DNA from: Neoscytalidium dimidiatum
Lineage: Eukaryota > Ascomycota > Dothideomycetes > Botryosphaeriales > Botryosphaeriaceae
Direction: 5' to 3'
NCBI GenBank assembly: GCA_037367355.1
Contig: CM074703.1
Coordinates: 620,001 to 684,000 of the forward strand
DNA: 64,000 nt
Made by a program: the position numbers and the translations under genes
Notes under the pieces: generated by a model
Databases searched by the model: none
Told to the model about the DNA's origin: nothing
The model's input: the letters and a program-made list of their open reading frames with translations, nothing else
In this document: one piece after another, positions 609 to 36,415 of the stretch
Numbering within the stretch: the stretch's first letter is position 1
How the letters are laid out: every line of letters starts with the position of its first letter

Positions 609-3600
609 ATGACCGCCATCAGGAATGCAGCGACTGCTTGTACTCGCAGCTTTCGAGTTCTTGCAGCTGCTTTAGAAGGCGGCGACGCTGAATATCGGAG
701 TCTCATCGACCCTGCTGCTCTCGAAGACGAATTCGGCCGTTTTCGTGTCTGGGCCGGGAATCTTGGTGCTCAGCAAAAAGGCCACAGCTCGCTTGACTAT
801 CGCCTACGCGACAGCCCGCTGCTACAATCGAATGTCCTGAAGCTCTTGCAAGAACTTGCTGTTAATCTCGACGAGGCTCGCGCAGTTGTAGCTGGCGCCA
901 GGCTGCCTTATGAGCAACAAGCAGCTCGCGGTGATTTCAGTGACGACAGCGCCTCGGAAGACTCTGAAGAGGATGAAGACATCAGCGAAGAGGAGCAGCC
1001 GAAGTATAAGCTCCAACAGAGGCTATTTGAGATCATCGATATCGTCAACCATCTCTATCGGCTATCTATCAGGATCCGCAGTCCTACCGTGAGGACGCGG
1101 GCTCTCAAGGCCGCAGCTTATCGGCAAATCGATCCTGAGACTGGGGTTGATATCTTTAGTCAATATGCTGAATACGACAAGAGATATATGGAGGATTCTC
1201 TTTCACAGCTCAGGGCCGGACGCAAAGCTGATGACCTCGGGTATCTTGTCGACCGGCTGAGCAGGGCCATCACGCGAAGACGCCAACAGTTTAAGTATTG
1301 GAAAAAGCATCGAGACAAGCTCTCAAATCTGGCGGGAACCGAGATGTCGAATCTCCATGTCGCTGATGATGACAAACTCCCTAAAAAAGAGGCAGCTGTG
1401 GGTGTTACGGACGATTGTTTACGGACCTCCGAGCTCGCTAAGATCAATTTGAGAGCTCCACCAAGTGAGAGTAATCCAAGAACTCTGCTGTCCGGTACTG
1501 AGGCCACCACGCATCATCGGACTCTGGATGACGCGGTTGACAGCCAGTCTGTCACGTCAATTGCCACCACAGCCAAGGATATCGAGGGTCACGGCGTTGA
1601 TCTCCCGCCTCCACCGCACTCTGCAGACGGAGAAAGAGATTTCGAATGCCCGTATTGCTTTGTTATCTGCCCAGCTCGCCATAGTCGAATGCGGGCTTGG
1701 AAGTAAGATGCAGCGTTGACTTGAAAAGAGCGCCTCCGTTAACCGCATCACAGGACACACCTCCTGCAAGATCTACAACCCTACGTTTGTACCTACAGGG
1801 ACTGCAACGATTCTGACCAGATGTTCCGGAGCCGCCGCGAATGGTTAGAACACGAAAGTTCCGCCCACAGAAAAGTCTGGCGATGCCCCAGCCATCCCGC
1901 TGCAGTATATTCGTCTCCGGAAGGCATGAGAAGCCACTTAGAAGATAATCACAATGACGATCTCTCCGAGGTGCAGAAGCAGCAAGTGATCAGTCTGGCG
2001 GAGATTTCAACCAACGATCTACGGGAGCACTGTCCAATCTGCCTGGTCCATGCCAATGACAATGGGGTCGACGGCAACTTGCACAACCACATCGCCAATC
2101 ATTTAGAAAGGCTTGCGTCTTTTGCACTTCCCAAGTTCGCGGGCACAAATGAAGGAAAGAGCGTGGCCAGCATGGATGTGTCTGATGGGAAAAGAAGCGA
2201 TTCGGAGCATTCTCAGTTGAGGAGCTTACAGTGGTCTGTGGACACACCAACAAACGACGACACTACAACTACGAAGCTCATCGGCGGGATGATGGCAGAT
2301 GAACTTACAGATCATCTACTTGAACTACTCGAACACGGTAGACTCCCTCGGTGGGATTATTCAGATTCGGACTGGCACAGAGTGAGGCCGTATCTTAACT
2401 CACACTTTCCGAATGAAGTGGTCTCGCGATTGATCCCCTTCTTAGACAAGATCTTCCACGAAGCTGGGGACAATCGGATTATGTCTGAGACAATCAGAAT
2501 GTACATCCACAGACTGGCGTCCGAGCAAGAAACTTGGGATCGTGGAACATCTAGACTGTCTTTAGATGCTGTCAAGTCAGTGCCCGACGCGAGTAAGGAG
2601 AAAATGGTACGCTTTCTGGAGGATACGGAGCAAGCCGACGTCGAAGATGAAAATCCAATTACCAGCATGAATGAGGTGCCTGAAAAGCCCACAAACGCTT
2701 TCGAAATACATACGAGCGAGGTACTGCAGGAAGCTCACGAAAGGAACTCCCCCACGGATGACACTACAAAGCCTGATGAGCCATGCATAGTGCGTGTATA
2801 CAACCTTCCGAGCTCTCCAGAAGAAAAGGAAGCATTTGCTCAATCATTCTCTGCTTTGGGATCAGATCTCCATCTTGGCCCCGCTTTCGAGTCTCGTGGA
2901 TATGCGACCTTCAAAAGTCAAATGGAAGCAGAAGGCGCTTTAACGGCCTTCGATAAATCCAAATTTCCAGACGTCATATTTAGCTTAGATAAGGACGATG
3001 AAGGACATGGAAACGGAATTGTACCAATAATTGAGTTCGATGTGAAGAGATTCTTAGATACGTTAATCAGGTAAGCTATCCACCATATCTTCGGAGGAGC
3101 GCACATTAACCCCTTCCGCAGAGTCCTCGGCGAACCAGGAAGTGGACAGTTCATTGCATGGGCCGAAGATGGTAAGACTTTCTCTATTCAGGATGAAGAA
3201 AGGTTCATCAGGGAGATCCTACCAGTGTTCGAGCTCGACGCATTCCCTCAATTCCAAGACCGTCTGATAGCCTGCGGATTCCGTCAACAAATCGGACAAC
3301 AATTTAAGACGGACGCAGGTGGGCTGAATCGTACCAGCATTTGGTCGCACAAACACTTCGAGCGCGATCGGCAAGGGGCCCACGGTCGCATACCGTTTTT
3401 TGTGAAACTGCAGAAACTATTCAGCAGAACTAAAGGGCGTCCGCTCGTCAGCCAGCTCGACAAGGTAGACACAACTATCAACATGAGTGGTTTCTCTGGG
3501 TTCTCCAAGAAACCAAGATCAGCATTTGCTCTCATGGCTGGCTCCGACATCCCAAGTATCCTCGATTTATATCGTAGTGGATGGCTGGAAACTCCTACCT

Positions 3601-5852
3601 CTGCTGCAGCAGATGCTTATTCGCTATTGCCGAGGGAAGATATCAACCAGAAGATTTCGATATTGCAGCACGACATCACCATGCTTAATGTGGATGCCAT
3701 CGTCAATGCGACCGGGTCGACTTTGGACGCCGGTCTTTCGGACTCAATTAGTTACTGGATACACCAAGCTGCTGGACCTGGCCTTCTACGTGAGTGCACA
3801 AGCCTTGGATTCTGCGAGATGGGACAAGCAGTGGTCACAGATGCGTACGACTTGCCTTGTCGAAAGATAATTCATACCGTGCGGCCACACTACTTTGAGG
3901 TTTCTGGAACCTCTGGCCAAGGAGACCTTTTGGCGAGCTGTTACCGGAGCTGTCTGAGGCTTGCAGTCGAGAAGAGACTGAAAACCATTGCATTTCCATG
4001 CCTCAGTGCCGGTGGGTTTGGCTATCCCACTCGCGAAGCCGCAGAGATTGCCCTAAAAACCACGCGCGAATTTATGGACTCGAGCGAGGGAGATCGCCTG
4101 AAAAAGATCGTGTTCTGCGTCTACAAGAACAGAGATCACCAAATCTATAGGGCACTCGTTCCACTATTTTTCCCTCCCAATAAGATCGATCTCGCATTTT
4201 ACGGCGAACAAGAGGTCCGCAAGGAGACCCCAAACTTTGTTGAAGACGACAGTCTTGATGACACACTAGAGAAAGACCAGGAGGACGTTTTTGACATGGA
4301 GCTAGATGCAGCAGGCCATAGTCGAGCAACGAGGTTGAATGAATCGGCGGAAAGCCTGAGCCGACTTACCGACGGACCTTCTCTTTGGGCATGCTGCAAG
4401 TGCCGAGCTAGACCCATGGAGACTCCGAACTGTCTCATATGCTATCACCAACTGTGCGACTCCTGCGAGGGGGAAAGTTCTGATGCCAAACCACAGTATC
4501 TGTCCTCTCCCCCACACCTGTTCCTTGTCTACCTCCGCCCTTCTGCCAACGTGTTGGATGACACCCAGCAAAGCGATTTTGCTTCCATCGATCAGCAGGG
4601 CTTGAGTGATGAAGACCACACTAGGGGGTCCGTGAGGTCTCGAGCAAACAGCCCTACGCGAAACTACCGTTCCACCTTCGTTAAGGCCCACCGTAAACAT
4701 CTGTCTCTAGATACCCTATTTTACTACGGCCTTCCCTTCCAGTTCGACAGCGTGAGTTAACATATCAAATTGATTCACTCTTCTATTACTGATGGCTCGT
4801 AGCATGATCAGGATTACGTGATAATCACGCGGGAACTCAACGAAGAGCAGACAGATATTCTCTTCCGACACTCTCGTCGCCACAGGAGGAACCTGCCTTC
4901 CCTAATCCGTATAAGGACGCATCCAAGTCCGAGGGACAGCGCCGCATCAATCCGCATTGGCTCCGACCCATCATTCAACAACCAATACCGGCCAGCTGGA
5001 GCTCCATTTTTTGTCCCCGAGCCCTTCGTCACTGCAGACCACTGTGGTTTCTACATCGAAGCCGGCCGGCAATGGATGCTCAACGTCAACCAAGGCTCCG
5101 GTAGCACATTCCTCAACGGCCGCCGCCTCGTGCGTCTCCCCGCAGTGGAAGAAGTCACTGCAGAGGATGAAGAGACCGGCACTCCCGCGCTCCCATCCCA
5201 CAACCACCGCGGCTACTTCGTCAAAAGCGGCGACATCCTCGGCCTAGGCGAGAACAACAACGGACGCCCGGCCCACCTCTTCCGCGTCGAGCTCGACAGC
5301 GTCGGTGCCACCGAAGACGACCTGTGGGAGGAAGCCGAGGCGCGAGCCTCCCGCTACGGCTTTCCGACCATCGGCCTCGATGAAGATGACGACAGCGATA
5401 ACAACGACGGTGGCAACGAGGGCCACGACGACCGCTCCTCACGCGCGGGTGACACGACCGACGCGGAGACCGACATCGACCCGGACATCGCGTCCGGCTT
5501 CAGGATCGTCCCCGCGCCGACCGAAGAGAACACCGTCGCGTCCCACATCCCTGAACAGGCACGGGGCGCGAGCCGCTGGACGCGCATCGACCGCCGCATC
5601 GTTAACCCGGCCGTGCTGAAGGAGGCGGGGCTGTTTTTTGAGAACCGCGTCAGGTACTTGCTGGTTTTCAGGGAACTGTCGGCGGGAGAGGTGGCGCGGT
5701 TGGCGCAGCGGACGAAGGAGAGCAGGGAGGTGAAGATGGCGACGGAGTTTACGCGGAAGGAGAGGAGGAGGAAGGAAAGGAGGGTTAGGGAGCAGGTCAA
5801 GGTGGCGAGGGAGAGGAAAAAGGGGGCCATGGAGAGAGAAGGTGGTGGGTAG
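609..5852 (+). CDS. Multidomain zinc-finger / HSF-like / macro / FHA-like protein
   Basis: Four exons: 609-1702, 1754-3070, 3122-4751 and 4812-5852 (GT-AG introns of 51, 51 and 60 bp). They join in frame into 1,693 residues. Residues 1-330 resemble the N-terminus of fungal C2H2 'acuF-like' proteins. Residues 344-440 carry C2H2-like fingers (FECPYCFVICPAR, then REWLEHE and a WRCP..H.A motif). Residues about 708-785 look RRM-like (VRVYNLP and SRGYATF resemble RNP2 and RNP1). Residues about 795-910 resemble an HSF DNA-binding domain (FLDTLIRVL, FIAWAEDGKTFSI, EILPVF, DRLIACGFRQQ). Residues about 981-1150 form a macro (ADP-ribose-binding) domain (VDAIVNAT, WIHQAAGPGL, IHTV, IAFPCLSAGGFGYP). Residues 1226-1255 hold a CCKC..C..C..C..C zinc motif. 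Residues about 1393-1507 look FHA-like (GSTFLNGRRL, SGDILGLGE). The tail is basic and coiled-coil-like. Function is unknown; a nuclear ADP-ribose/phospho-reader role is inference. The exon joins are well supported; some domain names (RRM, FHA) are tentative. Confidence 0.8.
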
Positions 5853-6238: not shown

Positions 6239-6566
6239 CTAGGTGATCGGGTTAGTCATCGGCGCGGGCAAGAGGCACCAGCACGTGCACTGGCCACCAA
6301 TGCAGATCGAATCCTTGCAAAGGGACGCGTCGGCGTGCATGCTGTAGGCGCACCAGATGCGGCAGTTGAGGTTGCTGTCGGGCTGTCGTTTCGTGCGTTT
6401 GGTTAGTTCCGCGCGCTTTCACTATTCTCATTTCCCTTTTGGGTTGAGCGGGGTGAGGGATGCGGACCTTGCCGCACGCCGGACGGTCGTCTGGAATAGC
6501 GGGAACGGCGACCACGCTGGCGATGAGAGTGACGCAAGAGGTGAGGATGAGGTTGGTGAGCTGCAT
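6239..6566 (-). CDS. Secreted cysteine-rich defensin-like peptide, copy A
   Basis: Two exons on the minus strand, 6468-6566 and 6239-6382, joined in phase 0 across an 85 bp intron, give 80 residues. The start MQLTNLILTSCVTLIASVVA is a classical signal peptide. The second exon carries the cysteine array. Overall spacing is C-x8-C-x3-C-x10-C-x4-C-x4-C-x-C-x-C, with the intron between the first and second cysteines. The C-x3-C plus C-x-C pattern is that of CSalpha-beta (defensin-like) folds; other disulphide-rich effector folds remain possible. Copies B (7130-7472) and C (7956-8278) have the same exon layout and nearly the same spacing. The donor (GTCCGC) is weak, so the exact exon-1 end carries some doubt. 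An antimicrobial or host-interaction role is inference. Confidence 0.75.
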
Positions 6567-7129
6567 GGCTTTAGTGCATTAGTGGATAAGCGAAAGTGAA
6601 TGAGAGGGGAAAGCCTACTGTTGATATACAGTAAAAAGGATGTTGGATGCTGGGGCTTGCAATGCTTTGTGGTCTATGAGATTAAGATAGAGGAAGTTGA
6701 GTGTACATGGCTTGGGAGTTGTGGAGAGCTTAGTGGAGGAGAATTGACGTAGGTGGGTAGGTGGGACTGCACAGGACGCACTTGCCAATCGCTCATCCAG
6801 GACAGTACTTGCACTGCCAAATGCCTCAAATCCCAGCAAGCCCGGCCAGCAAGAAAGAGCACAATGGAAGCACTGCTTGAATGGCCAGTGGAATTGCTCA
6901 GCATTGCCGTTGATGGCTGCACTCTCAATAATCGTGTTTCCGATATCAATTTTCCTTCTTCACAATCAGTAATCCGCCCAATTCCTCCAAGTATGCCTTC
7001 TCGTAGTTAAGGCGAACCCACTACGTTCATCTATCAATGCAACTCCATCCACTTCATATCTCTCAGTCTCCAAGATATCGAAAGCTGCACAAGTGATCCC
7101 CCGATGTCCAGGCCTGCAACGCGAGCCGC
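6567..7129. promoter_or_regulatory. Upstream region of peptide copy A
   Basis: This 563 bp gap should contain the promoter of copy A (minus strand) and the 3' UTR of copy B. I see no open frame with protein-like content and no clear TATA box, apart from a TATATC-like stretch about 60 bp upstream of the copy A start. Confidence 0.3.
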
Positions 7130-7472
7130 TCACGGAGGCAGGGTCAGAGCTCCCTTGCACCAGCAGCTGCAGTTGCCTTTCTTACATGTCGAATCCCCGC
7201 ACTGATCCTCGGGATTCCCGGTCCTTTTGGAGCAGTAGGCAACGCAATGCTTGTCGTTCTCACACTCTTTGTTGTTGTTGGGCTGTTGTTCGTTCGTTCA
7301 TCGGGATCGGATTCTTCCTTCGCCCCTTTCAATTCTTGGGAGGTGAGCTGAGGTGGGGTAAACTTACCTGGCCGTAGGCGGAGCCGGTTTCGGCTTGGTC
7401 TGAGCCGGTTGGGGTGGCTCCGACGATGAAGGCAAGGCCCAGGACCAGAGCGAGGAGGGTGATAAGCTGCAT
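7130..7472 (-). CDS. Secreted cysteine-rich defensin-like peptide, copy B
   Basis: Exons 7368-7472 and 7130-7264 on the minus strand join in phase 0 and give 79 residues. The intron has a perfect GTAAGT donor and an AG acceptor after a CAACAACAA tract. The signal peptide starts MQLITLLALVLGLAFIVGA. Cysteine spacing is C-x5-C-x3-C-x10-C-x4-C-x4-C-x-C-x-C, matching copies A and C from the second cysteine on. The second exon has the motifs HCVAYC, CGDSTC and CSCWC. Unlike A and C, its first cysteine falls in exon 2. Likely an extracellular, disulphide-stabilised peptide of the CSalpha-beta/defensin-like type; activity is not shown by the sequence. Confidence 0.8.
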
Positions 7473-35212: not shown

Positions 35213-36415
35213 ATGTCGGGCCGCCATTGGTAAGTCCATCCTCATCTGCCAGTCGTTGGCAAGGAAAAAGTACATCTCTCTAAGGAACGAATATTTTCCC
35301 CTCGTCGATAGGGAACAGGACAAGGAAGCTACCGTCTACATTGGCAATCTCGATGAGCGCGTTACGGATAGGCTCGTCTGGGAGCTCATGATCCAGGTCG
35401 GCCGCATTCAGAATGTCCATCTCCCCAAGGACCGCGTCACCCAGACCCACCAGGGCTACGGCTTCGTCGAGTTCCAGAGCGAGGAGGATGCCGACTATGC
35501 CGCCAAGATCATGAACCAGATCCGCGTCTACGGCAAGCCCATCCGTGTGAACAAGGCCAGTGCAGACAAGCAGAAGACCGTCGAGGTCGGCGCCGAGCTG
35601 TTCGTCGGAAACCTCGACCCCATGGTGGACGAGAAGATCCTTTACGATTGCTTCTCACGCTTCGGCACCTTGGTTTCAGCTCCCAAGGTATGTGTCTCGT
35701 TTAAACACTATGTCGCAAAATTATCTAATCAGTACCCTAACAGGTCGCTCGTGACGAGAACAACCTGTCCAAGGGCTACGGCTTCGTTTCGTTTGCTACC
35801 TTCGAATCCTCGGATGAGGCGATCGCCAACATGAACGGCCAGTACCTCATGAACAAGGAGATCAGCGTTCAGTACGCCTACAAGAAGGATGGGAAGGGTG
35901 AACGCCACGGTGACGCTGCTGAGCGTGCTCTCGCCGCGGAGGCACGCAAGCACGGTGTCCAGCCGGCTACGCAGCCTCTTCCCCCGCAGCTCTTCCAGCA
36001 GCCGTCCATCCCCGCCCCCAGCGCCCCAGCTGCTATGATGAACGGTGCAGGCCCTACCCCGCCTCCTGCTCCCGCCGGCTTCCAGCCCCCGCCGACCTAC
36101 CAGAATGTCCCGCCGCCGCATTCGCAGAGCCGTACTCCCGTCCAGCAGAACCCACTTCCTCCGCCGCCTGCCGGTCTTCCTGCTCGCCCGCCCCCCTCGC
36201 AGGCTGGCTACGGTGGCCCCGCTGGCTACGCGCCTCCGGGCTTTTCCGCTCCGCCTCCTGGCCAGTTCCCGCCTGCCGGTGCTCCGCCTGGCTTCGCTCC
36301 TCCGCCGAATTTCGCTCCTGGATTCGCCCCGCCGCCCGGCCAGGGCCCTCCTCCGCCGGGCATGCCTCCGGGCATGCCCCCGGGCTTCCAGCAGCAGGGC
36401 TACGGCAGGCGTTAA
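35213..36415 (+). CDS. HSH49: Splicing factor 3b subunit 4 (SF3B4/Hsh49)
   Basis: Exons 35213-35229, 35312-35687 and 35744-36415 give 354 residues. The first exon encodes only MSGRHW minus one base. RRM1 spans about 13-90 ([12 protein letters not shown] as RNP2, GYGFVEF as RNP1), and RRM2 about 101-178 ([17 protein letters not shown]). They are followed by [20 protein letters not shown], a stretch diagnostic of SF3B4. The last 170 residues are rich in Pro, Gly and Ala with GFAPPP-type repeats. The protein is part of the SF3b complex of the U2 snRNP and contacts pre-mRNA near the branch site. The intron at 35688 has a GTATGT donor and a CTAACAG acceptor. Confidence 0.96.

Follow-up and report, generated by a model that had tools for sequence, protein, structure and literature searches.

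The window analysed here is a 64 kb stretch of the Neoscytalidium dimidiatum genome (contig CM074703.1, positions 620,001-684,000; the whole genome measures 43.76 Mb in 40 contigs). On its forward strand, at 609..5852, lies a gene of four exons that is predicted to encode one large protein, in which an N-terminal helical module and a zinc-finger cluster are followed by an RRM-like domain, an HSF-like domain, a macro domain, a Cys-rich motif, an FHA-like domain and a basic C-terminus. It is the replacement of ligand-contacting residues in these domains that carries our interpretation.

In computed splicing of the exons 609-1702, 1754-3070, 3122-4751 and 4803-5852 (or 4812-5852), the joined frame was open with one terminal stop, which ends at 5852, and the two alternative frames of each exon contained 7 to 29 stops. 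All three introns have GT-AG borders. The start codon and the first two junctions line up with homologues: intron 1 (1703..1753, 51 nt) joins at WKTH, and intron 2 (3071..3121, 51 nt) splits the HSF-like domain. Intron 3 (4752..4802) has two in-frame acceptors, at 4802 (TAG) and at 4811 (CAG), giving lengths of 51 and 60 nt, and the frame is kept by either. Here the homologues from Diplodia corticola (P0001) and Lasiodiplodia hormozganensis (P0002) read FDSADLDFIIITREL and FDSNDQDHIIITREL, respectively, and the window reads FDSHDQDYVIITREL with the acceptor at 4802. This acceptor is favoured because the residues of P0001 and P0002 ahead of the conserved IIITREL fit it. The coding sequence would then be 5,091 nt long, coding for 1,696 amino acids, with three introns of 51 nt. 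Thus, the single in-frame gene of four exons proposed in an earlier note on this DNA was confirmed by the joined frame, the GT-AG introns and the matching junctions; its exon layout stands, and its size of 5,082 bases and 1,693 residues would change with the start of exon 4, which the homologues place at the other acceptor. In three further sequences (P0093-P0095), the intron 3 donor GTGAGT is apparently read as VS; they seem to continue into the intron and therefore look genomic rather than transcript-derived. As a side observation, third-position GC content is 0.76 in exon 4 (4803-5849) and 0.52-0.55 in exons 1-3.

Homologues were collected by scoring the best 7,987 candidates by shared words, and 92 proteins were listed. 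The protein begins with a helical module (609..1343, residues about 1-245) that the earlier reader had overlooked. It is conserved across homologues, with 46-74% identity in rows covering at least 90% of residues 1-265, and four further, weaker matches to it are found in the same genome (E 1.9e-8 or better). Next, a Cys/His zinc-finger cluster occupies 1641..2144 (residues about 345-495). Homologues aligning at 46-67% identity carry PF26082 here. Our Pfam search gave no match over the cut-off for the fingers, PF26082 included, and the model was probably missing from the Pfam copy used, because P0001 and P0002 received no PF26082 report from that copy either. The subsequent helical stretch (2295..2642, residues about 546-661; predicted local distance difference test, pLDDT, 45-83 per block) is weakly conserved: in five close rows 50-67 of the 116 positions are filled and 19-26 are identical.

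The RRM-like domain (2778..3005, residues 707-782) gave no Pfam match and is suggested by profile comparison and predicted fold. Profile-profile comparison with RRM domains of the same genome gave 93.1%, and the model of exon 2 shows a beta-alpha-beta-beta-alpha-beta order with pLDDT of 75-93 per block (residues 341-410 of that model). Four mismatched pairs each for FHA and RRM served as controls and gave 0.1-0.6%. The RRM-like motifs read VRVYNLP and RGYATF; set against the RNP consensus, their aromatics look partly lost. The HSF-like winged-helix domain (3030..3422, residues 791-904) and the MacroD-like macro domain (3642..4184, residues 978-1158) are both above the Pfam cut-off of 22, with 41.2 bits for HSF_DNA-bind and 106.6 bits for Macro in the whole 1,696-residue protein, and 47.2 and 108.6 bits, respectively, in trimmed pieces. 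Behind them follow the Cys-rich motif WACCKC...CLICYHQLCDSCE (4386..4469, residues 1226-1253), a conserved linker with the motif YVIITREL, which crosses intron 3 (4668..4889), and the FHA-like domain (4944..5297, residues 1395-1512). The latter reached 95.9% in profile-profile comparison with eight FHA matches of the same genome, and its four mismatched controls 0.1%. The last domain (5571..5795) is most likely PF26118, a placement that we infer; it ends in a basic helix with runs resembling nuclear localisation signals. The basic C-terminus had been noticed before, but not that it is part of this domain, which other relatives have as well.

The order of fingers, RRM-like, HSF, macro, Cys-rich, FHA-like and basic segments proposed in the earlier note was found again in close relatives, and an orthologue search returned the whole order in the Diplodia corticola protein. 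Of the domain names that it wished to see in Pfam, HSF_DNA-bind and Macro passed the cut-off, FHA stayed below it, and the fingers gave no match over it. Structure prediction by segment gave an RRM-like model in exon 2, but not the folds of the HSF-macro-FHA half.

To follow the contact residues, nine close rows were compared (the window, P0001-P0005 and P0093-P0095, the last three grouped with them by similarity alone). Passages of PMC8379338 describe Arg63 and Arg71 as invariant and as the chief source of sequence-specific contact in HSF recognition, with base contacts by Arg71 and Asn74 in HSF1 and by Arg63 and Asn66 in HSF2. In all eight close rows that have the region, the equivalent of Arg71 is D or E and that of Asn74 is I, V or L (P0003 has no letters there). 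The window protein shares the HSF-type DNA-binding fold, judged by sequence, with the heat shock factors HSF1, HSF2 and HSF4, but its recognition-helix Arg and Asn are replaced; the three other HSF loci of the genome retain SFVRQLN. Recognition of heat-shock elements by this domain is therefore not supported at the residue level.

The FHA-like domain gives a comparable picture. For the FHA domain of TbPar42, the excerpted text of PMC6468809 expects Arg97 and Ser112 to meet the phosphate and names Gly96 and His114 as conserved. The six close rows that reach this region (three of the nine do not) all have Ser instead of Arg (GR to GS) and Thr or Ala instead of Ser, and all keep Gly and His. Classical phospho-threonine reading is likewise not supported. 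An apparently independent pairing of FHA and macro domains was seen in P0206 (634 aa), in which the macro loop GGGGVDG is intact.

As for the macro domain, the motifs of mono-ADP-ribosyl hydrolases are given in the part of PMC10470015 consulted as N(6x)GG[V/L/I] for loop 1 and G[V/I/A][Y/F]G for loop 2. Macro domains with an independent E value below 1e-10 occur in 88 of the 96 proteins compared (the window and P0001-P0095), as a pair in 77 of them and singly in 11. The loop 1 motif was present in one of the 88 first macro domains (P0007), in none of the nine close rows and in two of the 77 second domains (P0036 and the fish PARP14, P0092). The loop 2 pattern was found in none of the 88 first or 77 second domains, P0092 included; this is weak evidence, because the pattern also misses both scored domains of the fish PARP14. 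The place aligned with Asp184 of MacroD1 (numbered as in the extract of PMC7468284) is Ser or Gly in nine of nine close rows. In the macro domain of the window protein, the VDAIVN Asp and the phosphate loop SAGGFG are retained. The telling point is that it is MacroD-like in its overall sequence, the nearest solved structure being MACROD1 (E 9.6e-44), and yet lacks the hydrolase motifs. MacroD-type hydrolysis is accordingly not supported by these residues. Human MACROD1 and MACROD2 share the macro fold and a close sequence with the window domain, which has replaced their hydrolase loop and the place of their catalytic Asp; they are not known to carry any of the other domains of the window protein. 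P0007, from Aulographum, is the sole homologue that keeps the hydrolase loop (GGGLDG) in its first macro domain.

Among the matches listed, the named proteins closest to this one come from Macrophomina, Diplodia and Lasiodiplodia, which belong to the Botryosphaeriaceae. A phylogeny of 32 rows, computed from the N-terminal module and the fingers, groups the window with P0001-P0003 in a single clade at a support of 99/100. P0001 and P0002 carry PF26082, PF00447, PF01661 and PF26118 within one chain and share with the window the N-terminal module, fingers, RRM-like, HSF, macro and FHA-like segments and the C-terminal domain; unlike the window, the P0002 model lacks the Cys-rich motif, and both match the helical stretch weakly. 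P0004 and P0005 have PF00447, PF01661 and PF26118 and no PF26082, their models being without most of the finger region. The P0003 model has no HSF segment, which is present in P0093, near-identical to it over the macro domain.

Segment profiles were then built from the nine close rows (5-9 rows per segment) and run on the 87 wider relatives (P0006-P0092). The HSF profile matched none of these 87. The macro profile matched 79 of them, with at least two macro domains in 77 (one a fish PARP14), the RRM-like profile 38, the C-terminal domain profile 37, the linker profile seven, the FHA-region profile three, by partial matches, and the Cys-rich profile two. Wider Dothideomycete macro proteins (e.g. 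P0009 and P0014) have the N-terminal module, the fingers and the first macro domain in common with the window, but they lack the HSF domain, mostly have two macro domains and in many cases carry PH_24 or other additions. All nine close rows have one macro domain, P0003 being uninformative on a second one because its partial model stops just past the first. On these profile matches, one macro domain together with HSF and FHA-like domains is the state of the close group. Additions of PAH, Zn_clus, Myb, RRM_1 and ULD_2 are spread over P0009, P0013, P0060, P0068, P0075, P0078, P0082 and P0084, and the EVH1-like PH_24 is present in many homologues. For P0084-P0088, PF26082 fingers and no macro domain are listed.

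On the whole, we favour, with a confidence that falls just short of an even chance, a nuclear binding scaffold with a macro domain that may sense ADP-ribose over a classical transcription factor of the stress response. The chassis shared with the relatives would consist of the N-terminal helical module and the zinc fingers. The macro domain would recognise ADP-ribose or one of its derivatives but leave it uncleaved, because the VDAIVN Asp and the SAGGFG loop are kept and the MacroD hydrolase loop is gone. Canonical contact residues have been lost from the HSF and FHA folds, less clearly from the RRM fold, and these folds would act as surfaces for proteins or for non-canonical binding of nucleic acids; the basic C-terminus would provide attachment to the nucleus or to nucleic acids. 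ADP-ribose binding and a nuclear role are both plausible. PARP14 and other multi-macro readers may work alike, as their macro domains sit in a large RRM-bearing protein and some bind without cleaving, according to the section of PMC10470015 consulted. Unlike PARP14, the window protein has no PARP family match in the Pfam scan, has a fungal chassis and has HSF and FHA folds added. In the six-frame search of the genome, the sole match to a PARP catalytic domain lies at G000:C2:2943390-2943548, in an open frame of 1,183 residues.

Several points weigh against this scaffold interpretation. FHA scored 13.5 bits (E 0.1) in the whole protein and 19.3 bits in the best trimmed segment, both under the Pfam cut-off of 20.7, and the predicted model of the HSF-macro-FHA half had a mean pLDDT of 33.6, with no usable fold. 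Loss of canonical residues is not proof of lost binding. The comparison has a small number of close rows (6-9), which are relatives of one another; the replacement in eight of eight does not amount to eight independent events. For the macro domain, the Asp184 equivalence is a sequence alignment over loops of unequal length, and loop 2 is GG[FY]G in nine of nine close rows, with SAGG[FY]G retained, so that GGFG of the window is one residue off the motif. Among the other three macro loci of the genome, the MacroD-type one (L013) keeps both motifs and two (L015 and L016) keep neither; absence of the motifs is consequently not special alone.

The strongest rival is a modular recognition protein, since related chassis carry Myb and ULD_2 without a macro domain (P0084), PAH (P0009 and P0013), RRM_1 and Zn_clus (P0078) or, in many cases, PH_24. 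Such a fast-evolving chassis of a receptor or defence type, with swappable domains, would recognise self, viruses or transposons. It would also fit the varying number of macro domains between groups, the lower conservation of the HSF and RRM segments among close rows (38-66% versus 67-74% in the N-terminal module) and the further, weaker matches to the module in the same genome. However, neither NACHT nor NB-ARC is among the three Pfam families found on the whole protein, and the N-terminal module places the close rows in one clade; we regard this alternative as unlikely. A macro domain that is still an eraser by means of other residues, targeted to chromatin by the remaining domains, is in keeping with the MACROD1 relationship and the retained loop 2, and alternative catalytic groups have been proposed in other macro domains, for instance a Cys in Getah virus (PMC7468284). 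Since the loop 1 motif is missing from all but one of the 88 first macro domains and the place of the catalytic Asp is Ser or Gly in all close rows, this alternative is quite unlikely.

Domain homology and the basic C-terminus speak for a classical chromatin or stress reader, in which HSF binds heat-shock elements, FHA phospho-threonine and macro ADP-ribose, as the earlier note had suggested. Its ADP-ribose part remains plausible, but heat-shock-element recognition by HSF and classical phospho-threonine reading by FHA are unsupported, because the HSF and FHA residues are replaced (the HSF pair in 8/8 rows and the FHA pair in 6/6) and the genome keeps SFVRQLN at its other HSF loci. This makes the classical role decidedly improbable. 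Finally, the suspicion that at least two neighbouring genes were wrongly joined could draw on deposited homologue models that are incomplete or miss segments (P0003, P0004 and P0005). It is barely credible, given independent models from Diplodia corticola and Lasiodiplodia that span the N-terminal module to the basic C-terminus, as well as the in-frame junctions, the GT-AG sites and the equal intron lengths.

A broader, speculative extension of the scaffold interpretation, which we hold to be rather unlikely, is that a conserved Dothideomycete nuclear chassis, made up of the N-terminal module, the zinc fingers and a non-hydrolysing macro domain, captures DNA-, RNA- and phosphopeptide-binding folds in each lineage and strips their canonical ligand residues, the Botryosphaeriaceae member, which has HSF, FHA and RRM folds around a single macro domain, being a pseudo-reader scaffold. 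If true, this scaffold would wire ADP-ribose signals to partners via repurposed folds, in a kind of domain evolution that parallels pseudokinases. In any case, the family offers a delimited group of Dothideomycete proteins that are candidates for reading ADP-ribose, and the window version could probe whether captured reader folds persist for new partners after loss of their ligand residues. It also calls for caution in inferring function directly from domain names. Deposited names in this set include a MACROD1 deacetylase (P0002), an ADP-ribose phosphatase (P0031) and a mek1 kinase (P0063); the activities implied by these names are unsupported by the sequences or remain putative. Our literature search, with most subscription papers outside its coverage, found no paper describing this domain combination, in line with the earlier note, which knew of no described protein with this order. 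As annotated orthologues are deposited, the architecture is, within the reach of this search, undescribed rather than unseen.

In the rest of the window, two short frames on the reverse strand (6252-6578 and about 7130-7472) begin with MQLTNLILTSC and MQLITLLALVLG, which by eye resemble signal peptides; the two neighbouring frames, perhaps with introns, have the look of genes for small secreted proteins. Between 9434 and 55404, ten long open reading frames were scanned with Pfam. Three were without a match and seven had ordinary families (2OG-Fe(II) oxygenase, PIG-O/G, GH71, ubiquitin hydrolase, SNF2-RING helicase, RIX1 and TPR). An RRM gene lies near 35334-35863 of the window.

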